64,000 nucleotides of DNA from Roseibium aestuarii (lineage in GTDB: Bacteria; Pseudomonadota; Alphaproteobacteria; Rhizobiales; Stappiaceae), in assembly GCF_008477545.1 (NCBI RefSeq), contig NZ_VORA01000002.1:310001-374000 (forward strand), written 5' to 3'. Below the pieces are notes generated by a model. The model had not been told where the DNA came from. It searched no databases and saw only the letters and a program-made list of their open reading frames with translations. Each line of letters opens with the position of its first letter. Position 1 is the stretch's first letter. Shown here piece after piece: positions 39,893 to 48,492 of this stretch. Both the position numbers and the translations under genes were made by a program.

Positions 39893-40162
39893 ATGAAGAA
39901 GACCCTGTTCGTCGGCGCTGCCGCCATGATGCTCGCTGCCTGCCAGTCCGGCAGCCAGGGAGACCGTGCCCTTGTCGGTGCCGGCCTGGGCGGTGCAACC
40001 GGTGCAGTCGTCGGTGCGGCGGCTACCGGAACGGCGGGCGGCGCTCTTGTCGGCGGCGCGATCGGCGCAGCCGGTGGTGCGATCGTCGGTTCCGCAACGA
40101 CCCCGCAGAACTGTGTCGCCTATGACAGCGCAGGCAACCCGTATCGCGTGGCCTGCCCGTAA
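39893..40162 (+). CDS. Glycine-zipper lipoprotein, copy 1 of 3
   Basis: An 89-residue protein. The N-terminus MKKTLFVGAAAMMLAACQSG has a lipobox (LAAC), so the mature Cys is lipid-anchored. Residues 25-70 are a glycine zipper (VGAGLGGATGAVVGAA...GAAGGAIVGSA) likely to form a membrane-inserting helical hairpin. The C-terminus NCVAYDSAGNPYRVACP is shared by all three copies. It is the first of three tandem paralogues (next at 40234 and 40576). An outer-membrane envelope role is inferred; function unknown. Confidence 0.88.
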   Translation: MKKTLFVGAAAMMLAACQSGSQGDRALVGAGLGGATGAVVGAAATGTAGGALVGGAIGAAGGAIVGSATTPQNCVAYDSAGNPYRVACP

Positions 40163-40233
40163 GCGATTGCAAATGTGCCGATTGCGACCCATTATGGATG
40201 GAAATTCCCCAAGGGTATCGGAGTGATCCTGAA

Positions 40234-40503
40234 ATGAAGAAACTACTCGTGATCGGCGCCACGGCCATGCTGCTGGCAGGGTGCCAGTCTGACAGCCAGG
40301 GCGACCGCGCTCTGGTCGGTGCAGGCCTGGGTGCCGCAACCGGTGCCGTGGTCGGCGCCGCAGCCGGCAACGGCGCAGGTCCGGCCCTTGCGGGTGCGGC
40401 CATCGGCGCGGCAGGCGGAGCCATCATCGGGTCCGCAACCGCACCGAAGAACTGCGTCGCCTATGACCAGTACGGCCGCCCCTACCGGGTCGTCTGCCCC
40501 TAA
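40234..40503 (+). CDS. Glycine-zipper lipoprotein, copy 2 of 3
   Basis: An 89-residue near-duplicate of the gene at 39893. The lipobox is LAGC at residue 17; SDSQGDRALVGAGLGAATGAVVG and the ending NCVAYDQYGRPYRVVCP are nearly identical to copy 1. The start was set at the ATG 40234, which gives a normal signal peptide; the frame is open about 36 bases upstream. Gene duplication is the simplest source. Confidence 0.88.
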   Translation: MKKLLVIGATAMLLAGCQSDSQGDRALVGAGLGAATGAVVGAAAGNGAGPALAGAAIGAAGGAIIGSATAPKNCVAYDQYGRPYRVVCP

Positions 40504-40575
40504 TATTCACAATCCCGACAAGGGGCGTGAACGGTTGTAGACTCAGGTGATTCGTTCTTTGCTGAAGGCAAGACC

Positions 40576-40863
40576 ATGAAGACCCTGATCACCGCGACCA
40601 TTCTCGCCCCTTGTCTCGTTTTCGGCCTCACCGGCTGCGTGTCCAACACGGACAGCCAGCGTGACCGCATGCTGATCGGCGCCGGAATGGGCGCCGCCAC
40701 GGGTGCGGTCATCGGCGGCGTGGCGGGCTCGACCGCCGGCGCAGCCGTCGCAGGCGCAGCCCTTGGCGCGCTCGGCGGCGGGATCATCGGCGTCGTCACG
40801 ACCCCGCGCAACTGCATTGCCCGCGATCAGGATGGCACGCCCTACAAGGTCCGCTGCCCGTAA
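40576..40863 (+). CDS. Glycine-zipper lipoprotein, copy 3 of 3 (diverged)
   Basis: A 95-residue diverged third copy. The signal is longer (MKTLITATILAPCLVFGLTGC, lipobox LTGC). The zipper region reads GAGMGAATGAVIGGVAGSTAG, and the tail NCIARDQDGTPYKVRCP keeps the same spacing. It is more basic at the end than its neighbours. It may share transcription with the two upstream copies; the gaps are about 70 bases. Confidence 0.85.
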   Translation: MKTLITATILAPCLVFGLTGCVSNTDSQRDRMLIGAGMGAATGAVIGGVAGSTAGAAVAGAALGALGGGIIGVVTTPRNCIARDQDGTPYKVRCP

Positions 40864-41964: not shown

Positions 41965-42744
41965 TCAGTCGTAATCCGTGTCCGTGTTCAGCACGTGGCG
42001 CGCCTCTTCCGGGACCCATTCCCCCCAGCGCGGCTGCAGCTGGTGATCGACGGAGACCCGGTCGTCGAAGACGAAGCATTCGCCCTTCCACAGGCTCTCG
42101 TCTTCCGGCACCTTTTCCAGATAGTTCAGGATGCCGCCTTCCAGGTGGTAGACCTCCTCGAACCCTTCCTTGAGCATGAGGCCCGTGGCCTTCTCGCAGC
42201 GGATGCCACCGGTGCAGAACATGGCGACCTTCGGCTTCTTCTGCAGCGCCTCCGCCTTGCGCACCCATTCGGGGAACTCGCGGAAGGCCTGGGTTTCCGG
42301 GTTCAACGCCCGCTCGAAGGTGCCGAAGGCGAATTCATAGTCGTTGCGGGTGTCGATCACCACCACGTTCGGATCGGAAATGAGCGCATTCCAGTCCTCC
42401 GGCTTCACATAGGTGCCAACGATCTCGTTCGGGTCGATCCCGTCCACCGCCAGACGCACGATCTCCTGCTTGAGACGCACCTTCATGCGCTTGAAGACCG
42501 GCCGGTCCGCCCAGGCTTCCTTGTGCTCGAGGCCTGCCAGCCGCGGGTCGGCTTCCAGATGCGCAAGCACTTCCCGCAGCCCCTCTTCCGGACCGCAGAT
42601 CGTGCCGTTGATGCCCTCGCGCGCCAGCAGCAGGCTGCCGCGCACGTCCCGCGCCTCGCAGAAGGCCTTCAGCGGATCCCGCATGGCTTCGAAATCTTCG
42701 AGGGTGGCGAACTTGTAGAGAGCGGCAATCAGGGTCTTTGTCAT
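41965..42744 (-). CDS. trhO: tRNA uridine(34) hydroxylase, rhodanese-like (TrhO family)
   Basis: A 259-residue protein. The N-terminal acylphosphatase-like domain contains [16 protein letters not shown]; the rhodanese domain has the active-site loop [11 protein letters not shown] with the catalytic Cys. TrhO oxidises wobble uridine to 5-hydroxyuridine in a subset of tRNAs. The ATG at 42744 gives the normal family length; upstream in-frame codons to 42906 are not supported. Neighbours are unrelated; the R-body locus begins about 210 bases upstream of its start. Confidence 0.9.
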
Positions 42745-42954: not shown

Positions 42955-43317
42955 CTACCCCAGCGAGTTCAGGAGCTTCACCAGATCGGCAAGATCCGCC
43001 CTGGCCGTCTCGATGGTCCCCGAGCCGCCGACCTTTCCCGCGCCATAAAGCCGCATGATGCCGCCCAGCACCGCCAGATCCGCGCTGGCATTGGCGATCC
43101 TCGCCCGCTGGGTCGCGTTGGCCATGTTGATCGCCTGGGACTGGGCCGCCGCCGCATAGAGCCCGGCCAGTGCCATGGCAGGTGATAACCCGAGCACATT
43201 CAGATCCAGCGCGTCGGTGCTGGTCGTTGCCGCCGCCGGAGTTGGGGTCGACGATTGACCGGACGGCGCCCCGCCGGCCGGAGCGGCAGCCCCCGCAAGG
43301 GTGGAAGACATGGGCAT
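42955..43317 (-). CDS. RebB-like R-body protein (diverged)
   Basis: A 120-residue protein. Residues 1-38 are a low-complexity Ala/Pro/Thr/Ser leader. The rest reads LNVLGLSPAMALAGLYAAAAQSQAINMANATQRARIANASADLAVLGGIMRLYG, which keeps the Reb-family pattern V.G.SPAMA...LY.A.A....I...NAT. It therefore looks like a paralogue of the RebB at 43737-44063. It lacks the N-terminal VTDAVTQ block. AGGAGGGTCTC precedes the ATG. It may be a minor or regulatory R-body subunit; only the sequence pattern supports this. Confidence 0.7.
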   Translation of the reverse strand: MPMSSTLAGAAAPAGGAPSGQSSTPTPAAATTSTDALDLNVLGLSPAMALAGLYAAAAQSQAINMANATQRARIANASADLAVLGGIMRLYGAGKVGGSGTIETARADLADLVKLLNSLG

Positions 43318-43672
43318 GAGACCCTCCTTTTTCCGCCGTCCCGCGCTGCGGGCACGGCAAGACCTGGGAAAGCCTGCCTGTCAAAGGGATGGAAACGCTG
43401 ACTGCGCTTCTCGTGCTTGTCTGGGATCAGGATCGACCCTCGAGGCTTAACGAAACCTTGCCCGGGGAAGCGAAAAGCAGCGGAGGGAGGACCGGAACGC
43501 GAAGCCATAGGGATCTCTTCCCTGAAAGGGCGGGAAGGAGGTGGCTCAGCCATCATGAGGGAGGAAAATGAGAGAACCGGGGGAAAATAATCCGCCGGGA
43601 TCTGCGCCCGGCGCATGGCAACTCCGCCAGTCCGGCATCGAACGGGCGGAGGCCGGAGGCTCTGGGTGTCCG

Positions 43673-43734
43673 GGGCGCTCCCGGGGATCTGGGAGCGCCC
43701 GGCACGCCGGGTATCTCGCGCCGGGGGCGCGAGA
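43673..43734. repeat. Two strong hairpins downstream of rebB
   Basis: The region holds a 10-bp stem (43673-43682 with 43691-43700) and a 9-bp stem TCTCGCGCC/GGCGCGAGA (43714-43734) that begins 3 bases past the rebB stop. Neither has a T tract. They may act as terminators or protect the rebB message. The rest of the gene-free stretch 43318-43672 holds no gene. Confidence 0.6.
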
Positions 43735-43736
43735 GG

Positions 43737-44063
43737 TCAGCGACCGCCCTGGAAGGCGTTGAGCACCGTGAGCAGGCCGGTCAGGTTGTCGGCCACGCCG
43801 GTCTGCGCCACCTTTTCGCTCGCACCGGCAACCGCGGTGGTGTCGAGGCTGTAGATCTGCATCACGCCCATGTTGGTCGCAGCCTGAGCCAGGGTGTTCT
43901 GCTGCTGGGCAGCGGAGACAGCATTCTCGAACAGGATGCCCGTGGAATGAGCCATGGCCTGATAGAGGGTGCTGATGGCCATGGCCGGGGCTTCGCCCAC
44001 GACCTTGACGTTGGACTGGGTGACGGCGTCGGTGACCATCGGATTCACAAGGGTTTCAGCCAT
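43737..44063 (-). CDS. rebB: R-body protein RebB
   Basis: A 108-residue protein that is the clearest Reb homologue in the window. The sequence VTDAVTQSNVKVVGEAPAM and the following AISTLYQAMAHSTGILFENAVSAAQQQ match the conserved RebB core. R-body proteins assemble into coiled ribbons that extend at low pH or on another trigger. The ATG at 44063 has GGAGAG 7 bases upstream; a longer frame to 44120 lacks family content. A terminator at 44211 separates it from the genes upstream, so it probably has its own promoter in the 150 bases before it. Confidence 0.93.
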   Translation of the reverse strand: MAETLVNPMVTDAVTQSNVKVVGEAPAMAISTLYQAMAHSTGILFENAVSAAQQQNTLAQAATNMGVMQIYSLDTTAVAGASEKVAQTGVADNLTGLLTVLNAFQGGR

Positions 44064-44210
44064 AGTAACGCTCTCCTGGAAAGATTGGCCGGGACACTGC
44101 ACCGGCAGGGAACATCTCAAGGACGCAACCGCCCTGCCCGCTGTGACGGAAAATCCGACGCCTCCTCCCGAAATCTTTGTCGCAAGCGCCTGCGGGAGCA
44201 GCGACGCAGA

Positions 44211-44242
44211 AAAACCGGCCGCGCAACGCGCAGACCGGTTTT
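44211..44242. terminator. Terminator separating the R-body operon from rebB
   Basis: AAAACCGG pairs with CCGGTTTT, with GCGC/GCGC inside the loop. On the minus strand it ends in a T tract (GGTTTTT), 74 bases past the stop of the gene at 44316. Confidence 0.8.
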
Positions 44243-44315
44243 CCTGAGGCGCTCACGGGCCTCGGCCGGGCGTCCCGGCGCAGAAAACGCACCAAGGCAG
44301 GAACGCAGGAAGGCC

Positions 44316-45194
44316 TCACCCCTTGCGGCTGGCCGATCCTCCGCCGCGCGACGGGCCGCCACCCGGCGACTGCCCCTTCTGCAGCTGTTCGATCACCTGG
44401 CGCATGTCCTTCGTCTTCTCCTCGACCGCCGCACTCACCATCGCCTGCAGCCGTTGCGTCAGCTCGCCCACCTGGTGCTGGGCCTTCTGCTCCGCCGCCT
44501 TCAGCAGCCCGAGCGCCCCGGTCATGGTCTGGTCCTGCCCGAGGGGCGATGTTGGAGCTGCTGCCCCCACCGGCCCCAGTCGGGACAAGACGCCGACCAG
44601 ATCTGCCTTGCCCTGACGCAGCATGTCCGCCAGATCCTGCGGATTGTCGAGCAACGCCTGAACGGCCCCCTGCTGGGCCTCCATGGCCTGCGCCATCTGC
44701 TCGGTCGTGTCGCGAAAGCTCTCCAGAAGCGAGGTGATCTTGGCCGCGGCTTGCGTGGCCGCGTCATCCGCCTGATCCTTGTGCTTCTGGATTTCGCCTC
44801 CGACCTCCAGCAGCAGGGGAAGCCTCCCCGCAACGGCCTGATAGTCCTCCCGAAGGCGACTTGTCAGGGTGACGGCCGAGACCAGATCCTGCACCCGGCT
44901 GCGCGCATTGCCCGCCGCTGGCTTTCCAGACTTGCCCGGCCCCTGAGGCGCCACCACGGGAGCGTCCTGTGCCGGCGCCGCTGCACCACCGGCCCAAACG
45001 GCCTGCGACGGCACCTGACCGGAGGCGCCCCAGCCACCGACGCGCGGGTCAGCGCTCACCGCGCCCCTCCCGGCATCCGCAACGCCCGCTGCGACAGGTG
45101 CAGCGTTCGCCGCGCCCGCCGCCCCGTTCCCCGCCACCCCGTTCGCCGCGTCCGGATTCGCCGGCCTCTCGCCCATTCTCGCAACCCACGTCAT
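44316..45194 (-). CDS. R-body locus protein, coiled-coil, function unknown
   Basis: A 292-residue protein that matches no family I recognise. Residues 1-100 are Ala/Gly/Pro-rich and low-complexity. Residues 100-260 are helical and heptad-like, with repeated EQMAQAMEAQQGAVQALLDNPQDLADMLRQGK and KAAEQKAQHQVGELTQRLQAMV stretches, suggesting coiled coils. The tail is Gly/Ser/Arg-rich. There is no signal peptide. The ATG at 45194 has AGGGAG 8 bases upstream. The first 146 bases overlap, out of frame, the end of the upstream gene. Position suggests an R-body assembly, scaffold or regulatory factor; it resembles phasins only in composition. Confidence 0.75.
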   Translation of the reverse strand: MTWVARMGERPANPDAANGVAGNGAAGAANAAPVAAGVADAGRGAVSADPRVGGWGASGQVPSQAVWAGGAAAPAQDAPVVAPQGPGKSGKPAAGNARSRVQDLVSAVTLTSRLREDYQAVAGRLPLLLEVGGEIQKHKDQADDAATQAAAKITSLLESFRDTTEQMAQAMEAQQGAVQALLDNPQDLADMLRQGKADLVGVLSRLGPVGAAAPTSPLGQDQTMTGALGLLKAAEQKAQHQVGELTQRLQAMVSAAVEEKTKDMRQVIEQLQKGQSPGGGPSRGGGSASRKG

Positions 45195-45915
45195 CGGACA
45201 TCTCCCTAATTTCAACGTTGATCGCCTCGACGAAGACCTCCGGTCCCCCCTTTCGGTCCCCCGGATCACGACGCTCCGGTATCGGCGCCTGATACGCGGG
45301 GCGAACGGGTGCCTGCTCGCGCGGATCCGCCCGGCTTGACCGGGGGGACGGCGCTTCCGGGGTTGCCGTCCAGCGGGGAGCCTCGGGCGAGGACATTGGG
45401 GCCGGCGCCACCGGAGGCGGCGTCATCGGGGGTGGGGCCATTCCCGGTCCCGCCGCAGGCGGCCAGGGTATGCCGACGCCCGGCACCTGGGGTCCGCCCC
45501 CATGGGATCCGCCCCCGTGGGATCCGCCGCAGCAGGGACAGCAGTCACCAAAGCCGTGGAAGCCCCCACCGCAGCCGCAGGGCGACGACGCCGGCGGCAT
45601 GGGAGGCGGCGCGGAAAGCTCTGCCATCCCCGCCCCGCGCCCGCTGTCGCGCGGTCCACCACGCGCCCCCGGGGCGGATCCGGCCGACGCCCTCAGCGCC
45701 GCCCCGTGATCGAGCCGCTGCTTCAGGGTCGCCGCCGTCCGCTCCGCCTGGGACAGGGTGCCCCAGGTCCAGGCCAGATAGGAGAGGACCTTCGGATAAA
45801 GGCAAAAGAGGCTCACGTCGTCGGTCCGATGCGGCCGATCCGTAAGAGCCTCCTGCCAGTCCCCCAGATAGCCGAGGAGGGTCTCCTCCAGCTCCTTGTT
45901 CACCTGTTCCATCAT
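45049..45915 (-). CDS. R-body locus protein, Cys/Gly/Pro-rich, function unknown
   Basis: A 288-residue protein with an unusual composition. Residues 1-80 are helical (EQVNKELEETLLGYLGDWQEAL). A Cys-rich patch follows: CGCGGG (113-118) and CCPCC (125-129), next to GGSHGGGSHGGG. Then comes a Pro-rich span (about 140-190) and a basic Gly/Arg tail ending RCTCRSGRCGCREG. Cys and His clusters suggest metal binding or disulphide cross-linking. The gene starts with two adjacent ATGs at 45915 and 45912; the first overlaps the stop of the small gene at 46109 (ATGA). The 3' end overlaps the next gene by 146 bases. Confidence 0.72.
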   Translation of the reverse strand: MMEQVNKELEETLLGYLGDWQEALTDRPHRTDDVSLFCLYPKVLSYLAWTWGTLSQAERTAATLKQRLDHGAALRASAGSAPGARGGPRDSGRGAGMAELSAPPPMPPASSPCGCGGGFHGFGDCCPCCGGSHGGGSHGGGPQVPGVGIPWPPAAGPGMAPPPMTPPPVAPAPMSSPEAPRWTATPEAPSPRSSRADPREQAPVRPAYQAPIPERRDPGDRKGGPEVFVEAINVEIREMSDDVGCENGREAGESGRGERGGGERGGGRGERCTCRSGRCGCREGRGER

Positions 45916-46109
45916 GCGCTCCTGTCCGGCGGGGACTGGTCCTCGTCATCCCCGGATATGGTGCCTGTGCGCGCCGGCCGGGTCTCTCCCAGAACCCGGC
46001 GCAGCATGCGGAAGATCCGCAATCTCTGTGTGACGGTGAGGGCCTCGACGGCCTCCGCGAGGGGAACGTCACGGTCCGCCGGAACGCCCGGAGATCTGTC
46101 CCTGGTCAT
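45912..46109 (-). CDS. Small R-body locus protein, 65 residues, unknown
   Basis: A 65-residue protein MTRDRSPGVPADRDVPLAEA that ends DQSPPDRSA. The middle is helical and Arg/Leu-rich (EALTVTQRLRIFRMLRRVLG). It lies 11 bases after the stop of the Reb-like gene, has a G-rich ribosome site, and its stop overlaps the next start (ATGA), so it is very likely translated as part of the operon. Function unknown. Confidence 0.7.
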   Translation of the reverse strand: MTRDRSPGVPADRDVPLAEAVEALTVTQRLRIFRMLRRVLGETRPARTGTISGDDEDQSPPDRSA

Positions 46110-46120
46110 GGCCCTGCCCC

Positions 46121-46819
46121 CTAGCTGCCCAGATCCCCGATGACGGTGCTGTTGGCCGTGCCGGCCGCCGCCGCCACGTTGCCGTAGACCGTCACGGATT
46201 CGGTCACCATCTTCTGGATGTTCTGCATCAGCTCGGTGATCGTGGGCTCGTTCTTCGGCCCCTCCGCCGCCAGCTTGATCGCCACCGCCTGCCCGGCCAC
46301 CGCAATCTGCATGATCGCGTTCATGTATTGCGCCGCATCCTGCACAGCGAGACCGGTGGTGGTCTCCACCATCATTTCCGGGCCAAGACGCACCATCTGC
46401 GGCACGGCCGTGCTGTTCTGGGCGTTGGAGAATTGCACCGCCTGGGTGATCTGGCTGTTGAGCGCGGAGGTGTCCACCGGCTGAGCGGGCGCGGCGGCAG
46501 TCTTTCGCGCAGGGGCCGGAGCGGGAGCCGAAGCAGGCGCCGCAGCCCCCGCGAAGACCTCAGGGCTCTCAGGCTCGGCTGCGGCCAGACGCGGATCTGC
46601 CCACCGATCGGCACGCGGGCGCGGCGGAACGCTGGCGGCCTGGGTTCGGTAGCCTGAGGCGGCAGGACGGCCGCTCGGGCGCTGGGACGCACCGGCTTCT
46701 GCTCCTTGAACCGGCGCGTCTCCGGCCTGTCTGCCGGCCTGTCTGCCAGGCTGTCCGGAACTCCGCACCGGTCCTTCCGGACGGGGCTCCTGCCGCCACA
46801 ACCATCCCATCAGTCCCAT
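46121..46819 (-). CDS. RebB-like protein with long N-terminal extension
   Basis: A 232-residue protein. The first 115 residues are a basic Ala/Pro/Gly/Arg-rich extension (PAPAPARKTAAAPAQPVDTS). The C-terminal half resembles Reb proteins: LNSQITQAVQFSNAQN, then TTGLAVQDAAQYMNAIMQIAVAGQAVAIKLAAEGP. The usual PAMA.LYQ motif has drifted to RLGPEMMVETT. It may cap or join the ribbon. It is 38 bases after the small RebB gene. Confidence 0.7.
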   Translation of the reverse strand: MGLMGWLWRQEPRPEGPVRSSGQPGRQAGRQAGDAPVQGAEAGASQRPSGRPAASGYRTQAASVPPRPRADRWADPRLAAAEPESPEVFAGAAAPASAPAPAPARKTAAAPAQPVDTSALNSQITQAVQFSNAQNSTAVPQMVRLGPEMMVETTTGLAVQDAAQYMNAIMQIAVAGQAVAIKLAAEGPKNEPTITELMQNIQKMVTESVTVYGNVAAAAGTANSTVIGDLGS

Positions 46820-46857
46820 GGTTCACGCTCCCGCACAGGGGGTTCAGCCCCGATCCG

Positions 46858-47088
46858 TCACTGGCTCTCGCCGATATTCATGATCAGTTGCACTGCCTTG
46901 GAGACCACCGCCGTGGTGATCTGGTTCATCGCCTGCTGCGAATGCACCGCGTTCTGGATCGACAGACCCGAGGCATGGCTGGCCACCTGATAGAGGCTGG
47001 CCATGGCCTGGGCCGGCGCTTCTGCGACCACCTTGACGTTGGTCTGGGTGACCGCATCGGTGATCTGGGCATTGACTTGATCGACCAT
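46858..47088 (-). CDS. R-body protein RebB family, short copy
   Basis: A 76-residue protein. QITDAVTQTNVKVVAEAPAQAM and ASLYQVASHASGLSIQNAVHSQQAMNQ match the Reb core almost as well as the copy at 43737. It ends soon after the second helix (VQLIMNIGESQ), so it lacks the C-terminal region. The ATG at 47088 has GGAAAG upstream. It follows the sigma factor gene by 132 bases. Confidence 0.88.
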   Translation of the reverse strand: MVDQVNAQITDAVTQTNVKVVAEAPAQAMASLYQVASHASGLSIQNAVHSQQAMNQITTAVVSKAVQLIMNIGESQ

Positions 47089-47220
47089 CTGACTTTCCGC
47101 CTGGGTTATGCGCCGGGACGGGCCCGATCGGGTTGGAAAGGCTCCGGAGGAACCGGCCTTGCGGCGGCTGCCGAAGCGCCCTCCGGTCCGAGACCCGGAG
47201 CGCCTGTTGATAGGGACGCC

Positions 47221-47829
47221 TCAGCCGAGGGACTGTGAGGAGACCGGACCGGGTTCAGAGCCGAAATCCAGATCCTCGCCCAGGGCCGCACGCAATTTTT
47301 CCCGCAGATGCTGGATGCGCTTGCGCGCCAGCGTTTCGGTAATCTCCAGCTGGCGCGCTATGTCGCGATAGCTGCATTCATCGAGGAACCGGAGCGAGAA
47401 GACCGCCCTCAGCTCCTCCGGCAGGGCATCGACCACGGAAAGAACCCGGCGCAGCGCGTCCTGGTGGCGCAGGCAGTTCTCCTGATCCGGCGCCGCCTCC
47501 GCCAGCCCGTAATACTCGTCCTGATGCACATCCCCCTGCATGTCCCGCAAGGAGCGCTCCGGCACCTGCCGCCGGATGCGGCTGATATGTTCGTTGCGCA
47601 TGGCGAACAGCAGGAAGGCCCGCGGCTCGAGCACATCGGTGCCATGGCGCTCCACATGGGTCACGGCCTTGATCAGGGTCGAAGACAGGAGGTCATCCGC
47701 CTCGTCCCGGTTGCCTCTGGTGAGGCGCAGGGCACGCCGTCGCAAGACGATCGCGTCCTTCATCCAGCTTTTCCAGAGACCATGCGCAGCAGTGAAGTGA
47801 ATATCTCTTGCCAAAACTTCGTTGTTCAT
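47221..47829 (-). CDS. Sigma-70-family RNA polymerase sigma factor (R-body locus)
   Basis: A 202-residue factor with sigma region 2 (RGNRDEADDLLSSTLIKAVTHV, then EPRAFLLFAMRNEHISRIRR) and region 4 (LPEELRAVFSLRFLDECSYRDIARQLEITETLARKRIQHLREKL), the layout of extracytoplasmic-function type factors. No anti-sigma factor is adjacent. It heads the reb genes and reads in the same direction, so it probably drives them, as sigma factors accompany reb genes in other bacteria. The ATG at 47829 is the likely start. Confidence 0.88.
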   Translation of the reverse strand: MNNEVLARDIHFTAAHGLWKSWMKDAIVLRRRALRLTRGNRDEADDLLSSTLIKAVTHVERHGTDVLEPRAFLLFAMRNEHISRIRRQVPERSLRDMQGDVHQDEYYGLAEAAPDQENCLRHQDALRRVLSVVDALPEELRAVFSLRFLDECSYRDIARQLEITETLARKRIQHLREKLRAALGEDLDFGSEPGPVSSQSLG

Positions 47830-48416
47830 GACCCCACATGTCCCCTGTGGTGAGTTTTGATAAATACAACGACGCTAGGAGTTAATTCTTGTGAATAAAT
47901 TCCAGAGAAAAACTTTTAAGACTATTTTGAGCGAAACGCATGAGCCTTCACCCCGCGAGCACCCAAGACGTCCGGATGATCACACACCCGCAAACGCAAT
48001 CTATGCGAGCGCAACCCATATTGCAACCATAGCGAGCTTAAAATGACGCCGCCAACCTCCGCCCCTCTCCCAGAGGAGCCTCATGAAATGCAGCCAGGGA
48101 TAATGCGAGAGGCGAGCCTGGCCCGGCGCCGGAGACGAGCTCAACTGGCAGCGGATCATTTCCGGACGCAGGTCGCAGGGAATCGTGACCGGAAGCGGCG
48201 CGACCATGACCGCGCGCAACGTCCCAAGAACACTGTGTCCGCGGAAATCCTGGCGCGCGAAACGACGAGCCGCGAGAGAGCCTGAGAGACGGAGGAGAAT
48301 GGAAAAATCGAGAGAAGCTCAGATCAGCAGAGAATGCAGGCGGAAGCGCCTCGCTCAGGACGACACTCGCCTTCGGCGTGTCGTCTTCATTCCGTGACTG
48401 AGAGAAGAAGAAGAAG
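47830..48416. other. Gene-free stretch between the sigma factor and tRNA-Lys
   Basis: About 590 bases with no convincing gene. The AT-rich part near 47860-47930 probably contains the sigma-factor promoter on the minus strand. A GACGACAC/GTGTCGTC hairpin (48359-48385) lies 30 bases past the tRNA 3' end and may process or terminate its transcript; it has no T tract. Confidence 0.5.
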
Positions 48417-48492
48417 TGGTGGGTGCACGGGGATTCGAACCCAGGACCGGCTGATTAAGAGTCAGCTGCTCTACCAACTGAGCTATACACCC
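48417..48492 (-). tRNA. tRNA-Lys, anticodon CTT
   Basis: On the minus strand the gene reads GGGTGTA...TGCACCC as acceptor stem, a normal D arm GCTCAGTTGGTAGAGC, an anticodon stem GCTGA/TCAGC with loop CTCTTAA (anticodon CTT), and the T arm GGGTTCGAATCCC. The discriminator is A and CCA is encoded (48417-48419). It is a complete 76-base tRNA. Confidence 0.97.

Follow-up and report, generated by a model that had tools for sequence, protein, structure and literature searches.

R-bodies, protein ribbons that are coiled and can spring open, are investigated both as protein springs and as weapons directed at grazers, but how a bacterium switches them on is to our knowledge poorly known. This question is raised by a locus with reb genes and a sigma factor gene in Roseibium aestuarii, located in a stretch of 64,000 nucleotides (contig NZ_VORA01000002.1, positions 310,001 to 374,000; hereafter the window). 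Eight open genes, all on the minus strand and read from 47829 to 42955, encode in this order the sigma factor (202 amino acids, aa), a Reb protein of 76 aa, proteins of 232, 65, 288 and 292 aa, and two Reb proteins of 108 and 120 aa (Table 1). Judged from its sequence, the locus is real and probably functional, an R-body locus of a type already in print and in itself an ordinary find; the regulatory pattern around it, in which a self-activating sigma switch probably lies in the window and would drive two reb transcripts, is worth testing.

Reb proteins and the sigma factor beside them

The proteins of the locus were searched with the RebB profile (Pfam PF11747, cut-off 24 bits), and three of them scored above the cut-off, at least three reb genes being usual for an R-body locus; these were the only RebB matches in the whole genome. 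Since none of the 14 control genomes has a RebB match and 17 of the 45 genus genomes do, the match in the window is not considered a chance hit. A first-pass annotation, made from the letters of the window, had listed four Reb-type proteins, two of RebB type and two diverged relatives. The profile search, which it had named as a check, bore out the RebB pair (the 76- and 108-aa proteins, RebD and RebP) and, as a diverged relative, the 120-aa protein (reb3). The 232-aa protein dropped out of the count: PF11747 gave no hit, its C-terminal domain resembled Reb weakly in hhalign (E 0.017, probability 2.7%), and its membership in RebB was ruled out on these two results; it is treated below as RapA-like. 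The primary Reb motifs defined in PMC13430693 (QITD, KxxxD/E, a tyrosine, NAV and QQQ) were recovered in two of the three Reb proteins, as QITD, KVVAE, LYQ, NAV and QQ in RebD and as MVTD (replacing QITD), KVVGE, LYQ, NAV and QQQ in RebP; reb3 is without QITD and KxxxE. Comparison of the 108-aa protein with PDB sequences returned nothing at E ≤ 1. A weak RebB match below the cut-off was seen at G057:C1:693068–693148, in a genome from another family of the same order.

The gene at the head of the set, annotated as a sigma factor from the start, encodes an extracytoplasmic function (ECF) sigma factor, with TIGR02937 at 67.3 bits over a cut-off of 42.9 and the domains Sigma70_r2 and r4_2 matched. 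Strong orthologues (E ≤ 1.1e-65) were found in 17 of the 45 genus genomes, and RebB in the same 17, which agrees with the dedicated role that had been proposed for this sigma factor. The sigma factor of the Pseudomonas protegens reb cluster, compared with the R. aestuarii genome, matched the window sigma best, with 64.9 bits versus 20.4 for the next protein. A reb-type ECF sigma factor thus placed beside reb genes is the mark of Group 2, or PA14-type, clusters, and the best explanation as a whole, which we consider highly probable, is a sigma-associated reb cluster of this type in a Roseibium-group alphaproteobacterium. A second sigma factor, 41% identical to the reb sigma (E 1.2e-38), lies at a contig end (G031:C16:100–618) in a reb-bearing genome.

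A search with the 76-aa protein as query yielded 248 relatives, and the analysis went on with the best 80. Among these best 80 of 248, RebD relatives were 75–93% identical, the nearest belonging to Roseibium/Labrenzia, Pannonibacter and Pseudovibrio, followed by Luteimonas, Xanthomonas, Lysobacter, Burkholderiales, Chromobacterium and Pseudomonas. A sigma match was present in all 80 kept loci and a RapA-type match in 79 (tblastn E ≤ 1e-3), and a RebP gene followed on the same strand in 24 of 26 alphaproteobacterial loci (25 plus the window). For Roseibium litorale and R. suaedae (L092, L097), rebP lies outside the stretch. The cluster is rearranged in G021:C6 and G029:C11, with rebP 6–9 kb from rebD on the opposite strand.

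An upstream motif and the proposed wiring of the sigma factor

Upstream regions of the sigma gene were found to align at TTCACA...GCGTC, and the motif TCAC-Nn-CGT(C/T) was counted for n from 10 to 22 in the 200 bases upstream of each gene (230 for the sigma gene). The count covered 81 loci, 26 from alphaproteobacteria including the window and 55 from a beta/gamma group that includes Burkholderiales and Neisseriales, with L001–L023 left out; first rebP genes were counted only if tblastn exceeded 80 bits (24 of 26 and 43 of 55, respectively). With n = 16, the motif precedes rebD in all 26 alphaproteobacterial and 52 of 55 beta/gamma loci. It precedes the first rebP in all 43 beta/gamma cases and, among the alphaproteobacterial ones, in 17 of 24 with n = 16 and in two more with n = 17, one of them the window. 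The sigma gene itself carries the n = 16 form in 20 of 26 alphaproteobacterial and 3 of 54 beta/gamma loci. Sites of the first group end in CGTC, those of the second mostly in CGTT. As controls, other spacings gave 0 to 4 occurrences (0 to 3 at rebD and first rebP genes, the 4 at beta/gamma sigma genes), 0 to 2 were counted on the opposite strand, and the means over 50 dinucleotide shuffles were 0.02–0.46. With starts set at the longest open reading frame (ORF), the motif was missing from both reb3 genes and from 29 of 59 genes of the RebP class, most of them copies after the first. Spacing peaks at N18 and N21 in another count (N21: 104 beta/gamma, 17 alphaproteobacterial) were absent upstream of genes and presumably reflect conserved Reb codons. 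A scan for sigma-70 promoters found none.

In the R. aestuarii genome, a relaxed pattern (TCACA/RCGTC, which misses TCACG sites) occurred 20 times, compared with 5 in a reversed control, and three of these sites precede sigma, rebD and rebP. The 17 hits outside the locus all overlap an ORF of at least 100 aa on one or the other strand, an overlap that carries little weight in GC-rich DNA, the rebP site of the window overlapping spurious ORFs likewise. Three outside hits have a same-strand ORF start less than 200 bases downstream, at 17 (L104), 73 (L118) and 154 bases (L122); the first (1501–1525 of L104, G000:C11:477454–477478) is followed by a 184-aa ORF and lies far from the reb locus. Because of these hits near ORF starts, a sigma regulon confined to the reb locus is rated as likely only.

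The sigma gene of Pseudomonas indica is adjoined by a Crp-type gene (cNMP_binding and HTH_Crp_2), which was taken for RcgA. Genes like it were present in 42 of 55 beta/gamma stretches and in none of the 26 alphaproteobacterial ones. No Crp-type activator (RcgA/HP2.4, frequent in Group 2 and not universal there) was found beside the window genes, and the best RcgA match in the R. aestuarii genome was a distant Crp-type protein with 27% identity on another contig. When 80 loci were tabulated (L054, with its sigma gene on the other strand, left out), 23 had the N16 motif before sigma and no RcgA, 41 had RcgA and no N16 motif, 16 had neither and none had both; L051 has RcgA together with an N15 variant before sigma. 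The three self-motif loci outside the alphaproteobacteria (Luteimonas L037 and L039, Xanthomonas L043) encode the sigma factors closest to that of the window (43–49%).

It is about an even bet, in our judgement, that reb clusters run on two interchangeable circuits reading one promoter: an activator-fed one with an RcgA-like gene in the cluster, and a self-fed one in which the sigma gene carries the promoter and RcgA is not nearby (Roseibium, Pannonibacter, some Pseudovibrio and a few Xanthomonadaceae). The self-fed form would act as an on/off switch with positive feedback and would account for R-bodies being made in only a small fraction of cells. The 16 loci with neither feature (six Pseudovibrio, six Pseudomonas, four others) speak against a plain either-or rule; an activator of theirs may be encoded beyond the stretches, whose reach is 12 kb at most.

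A strong stem-loop directly follows rebP. After alphaproteobacterial Reb genes best matching the 108-aa query, the median z-score was −2.38 (34 of 53 below −2), and after the corresponding beta/gamma genes −1.73 (32 of 82). Alphaproteobacterial controls had medians of −0.25 for rebD (1 of 26 below −2), −0.05 for rapA (0 of 26), 0.23 for sigma (1 of 26) and −1.04 for trhO (6 of 24), and beta/gamma controls 0.65 for rebD (1 of 55), −0.27 for rapA (6 of 53) and −0.67 for sigma (7 of 53). A T-run follows the hairpin in several loci, as in intrinsic terminators, and none does in the window. Since a terminator scan found 3 candidates compared with 3.2 in shuffles, the window hairpin rests on its z-score and on the comparison across loci; Rfam returned the flanking tRNA only. 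With a predicted promoter and a hairpin of its own, rebP resembles a transcription unit in its own right, and this would allow more ribbon protein than helper protein to be made.

A statement of such a promoter was not found in the accessible portions of the literature on R-bodies, reb operons, FecI2, ECF sigma factors and Roseibium, and the word 'motif' is absent from the main text of the PA14 paper (PMC8322103). A FecI2 logo was derived and shown in a figure of PMC4362757, and the PA14 form of the motif may already be known. The motif, the split between sigma self-motif and RcgA, the co-occurrence of sigma and reb, and the rebP hairpin are beyond what this literature search turned up.

Accessory genes, genomic site and feature table

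The 232-aa protein has the traits of RapA and group S4, namely an extended N-terminus rich in proline and charged residues, a degenerate Reb-like domain and a position adjoining rebD; these were read off an alignment of 26 sequences and the gene position, RapA of PA14 being matched by description only. The 65-, 288- and 292-aa proteins, already called unrecognised in the first-pass annotation, gave no Pfam/TIGRFAM-type family match at cut-off. Relatives of all three stand at the same position in neighbouring species and are fast-evolving, the 288-aa family keeping its head and the 292-aa family its coiled-coil core. The genes of the 288- and 292-aa proteins overlap by 146 bases in different frames (45049–45194), as do their counterparts in 19 of 22 listed loci, some for longer (longest-ORF starts). 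In Xanthomonas sp. GPE 39, a profile of the 292-aa family matched an ORF located between those of RapA and RebP (E 1.3e-11); its further matches in beta/gamma loci are weaker, and most are weak.

The locus is flanked by trhO (UPF0176/rhodanese; 41965–42741, minus strand) on one side and by tRNA-Lys (48417–48492, minus strand) and ilvB on the other; ilvB was present in 19 and trhO in 25 of the 26 alphaproteobacterial stretches, and many related loci are likewise bordered by trhO and tRNA-Lys. Ten of the 28 reb-negative genus genomes were examined. Three hold trhO, tRNA-Lys and ilvB together without reb, with trhO-to-tRNA gaps of about 0.2, 1.1 and 2.1 kb, and in the other seven ilvB was not found beside trhO. 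Across 25 loci, distances between sigma sequences correlated with those between trhO sequences (Mantel r 0.757; none of 2000 permutations reached this value). A long stay of the locus at one site, with losses, would fit these data, which are not proof of it. Elsewhere in the window, at 39893–40863 (plus strand), three short tandem ORFs of related lipoprotein-like proteins (89, 101 and 95 aa) gave glycine-zipper matches, only the first above the Pfam cut-off.

Table 1 Features of the reb locus in the window, listed in the direction of reading
Feature	Position	Strand	Evidence
Predicted sigma-dependent promoter of the sigma gene itself, TCAC-N16-CGTC	47871..47894	-	Motif in 20/26 alphaproteobacterial loci
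ECF sigma factor, 202 aa, FecI2/HP2.3 counterpart of reb clusters	47221..47829	-	TIGR02937; co-occurrence with RebB
Predicted promoter of rebD and its downstream genes, TCAC-N16-CGTC; overlaps 3' end of sigma gene	47215..47238	-	26/26 alphaproteobacterial loci
RebD-type Reb protein, 76 aa	46858..47088	-	PF11747, 93.9 bits
RapA-like protein, 232 aa; N-terminus of low confidence, C-terminal domain helical, with distantly Reb-like motif NSQITQAVQ	46121..46819	-	Alignment of 26, structure model
Small hypothetical protein, 65 aa; Roseibium relatives at the same position	45912..46109	-	tblastn, neighbour comparison
Hypothetical protein, 288 aa; first ~75 residues conserved, tail variable, Pro/Gly/Cys-rich	45049..45915	-	No family match
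Hypothetical coiled-coil protein, 292 aa, predicted helix 97–183; start codon uncertain (45269 also possible)	44316..45194	-	Family alignment, model
Predicted rebP promoter, TCAC-N17-CGTC, one base over the usual spacer	44122..44146	-	Near relative L030 also N17
RebP-type structural Reb protein, 108 aa	43737..44063	-	PF11747, 96.8 bits
Strong stem-loop directly 3' of rebP, without T-run	43665..43706	-	z −3.81
Third, diverged Reb protein (reb3), 120 aa; upstream motif copy not found	42955..43317	-	PF11747, 33.6 bits

Proposed working and known systems

Conservation of the sequences suggests that the ECF sigma factor would act on TCAC-N16/17-CGTC promoters and from them transcribe both its own gene and two reb units, the first unit comprising rebD, rapA and three accessory genes and the second rebP, followed by its hairpin. 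Following published work on PA14, Caedibacter and L. alexandrii, RebP, associated with RapA, would polymerise into a coiled ribbon, with RebD and the accessory proteins aiding assembly or loading, and in a cell taken up by a eukaryotic grazer or host the ribbon would uncoil and burst the cell. The Reb assembly of this strain could instead lack any role towards eukaryotes, and profile scans of the window proteins recognised no toxin family in the cluster; damage by R-bodies has been reported for three divergent bacteria (PMC8322103; for Azorhizobium caulinodans, PMC5527310), which makes this unlikely.

The TCACA/CGTC form of the motif resembles the promoter of ECF41 sigma factors, TGTCACA and CGTC with a spacer of 16 ± 1 (PMC3426412), so another sigma factor or regulator could use it and the reb sigma could have a different role. 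The window sigma, however, is without the large C-terminal ECF41 extension (region 4 ends at residue 179 of 202), the motif precedes both sigma and reb genes and tracks reb clusters through the alpha, beta and gamma classes, and FecI2 is required for rebP1 expression in PA14 (PMC8322103); control by another factor is quite improbable on these grounds. There is a very slight chance that the locus is a decayed or silent remnant no longer making ribbons, as reb-negative relatives with a bare site mark it as dispensable and reb3 has diverged to 33.6 bits, but all genes are open, the predicted promoters and accessory genes are kept, RebD and RebP retain the KxxxE, NAV and QQ/QQQ signatures named in PMC13430693, and RebD/RebP reach 97.2 and 92.9 bits, in line with their counterparts elsewhere in the genus (about 92–103).

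Besides the likeness to ECF41 promoters, several points weigh against a working R-body locus under a self-activating sigma switch. The motif totals (78 of 81 before rebD, 62 of 67 before the first rebP) come from related loci, all picked by the 76-aa RebD, and are not independent trials. The rebP motif of the window has N17 in place of N16, reb3 has no upstream motif, and 5 of 24 alphaproteobacterial first-rebP genes are without one even at N15–17. The hits elsewhere in the genome, such as that of L104, may be promoters too. Ribbon, transcripts and promoters of the strain are predictions from its genes. The link from RapA to Reb is weak, the RapA structure model (mean predicted local distance difference test score, pLDDT, 64.9) had 102 PDB matches at E ≤ 10 and none at E ≤ 0.001, and the model of the 292-aa coiled-coil protein (mean pLDDT 65.6) had none at E ≤ 10.

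A short predicted promoter marking reb units in three bacterial classes would make the reb regulon searchable in any genome and open to a direct reporter test, and the split into RcgA-fed and self-fed clusters would make the rare all-or-none expression seen in PA14 testable in harmless marine strains.

The gene set had been supposed to be undescribed. This is ruled out by the publication on Labrenzia (Roseibium) alexandrii DFL-11 (PMC3764935), where the same arrangement is reported, matching the reb cluster of PA14 as well. In DFL-11 (ladfl_0000084–91), an upstream ECF sigma gene accompanies three RebB homologues, the first of which is separated from the other two by four hypothetical genes, and R-bodies were seen by transmission electron microscopy (PMC3764935). 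The window shares the order ECF sigma, reb, four hypothetical genes, reb, reb. The Reb lengths are 122, 109 and 76 aa in DFL-11 versus 76, 108 and 120 aa in the window. By the order in the paper the 122-aa protein is beside sigma, whereas in genome G007 (locus L170 at 98 kb), which has the same genes in the same order with three motif copies and which we infer to be DFL-11, the 76-aa gene is beside it. The window differs in belonging to another species and in its diverged accessory proteins (RapA 59% over residues 99–230, compared with G007).

An R-body operon is likewise present in the alphaproteobacterium Azorhizobium caulinodans; it holds four reb genes, and its accessory genes are unrelated (PMC5527310). 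Unlike the window, this operon is under PraR and RebR, and the term 'sigma factor' is absent from the main text of that paper (PMC5527310). A sigma-associated 'Group 2' reb synteny was described by Raymann in 2013 (PMC3583457), for which two partner proteins, HP2.1 and HP2.2, are named; the window, with its sigma-associated reb locus, is like this group and like groups 2, 3 and S4 in the work of Dorr et al. 2026 (PMC13430693), whose survey placed RapA in group S4 and left out sigma and other non-Reb genes.

The window is also like Pseudomonas aeruginosa PA14, where rebD, rapA, 27675, 27660, 27650, rebP1 and rebP2 follow in locus-tag order with the FecI2 sigma factor in the cluster. As published, the PA14 cluster comprises RebD, RapA, RebP1, RebP2, FecI2, RcgA and three further genes called non-conserved elsewhere (PMC8322103). 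PA14 also needs the transcription factor RcgA, which has no like gene in the window stretch. R-body expression in PA14 is rare and all-or-none, occurring in 0.26% of cells (PMC8322103).

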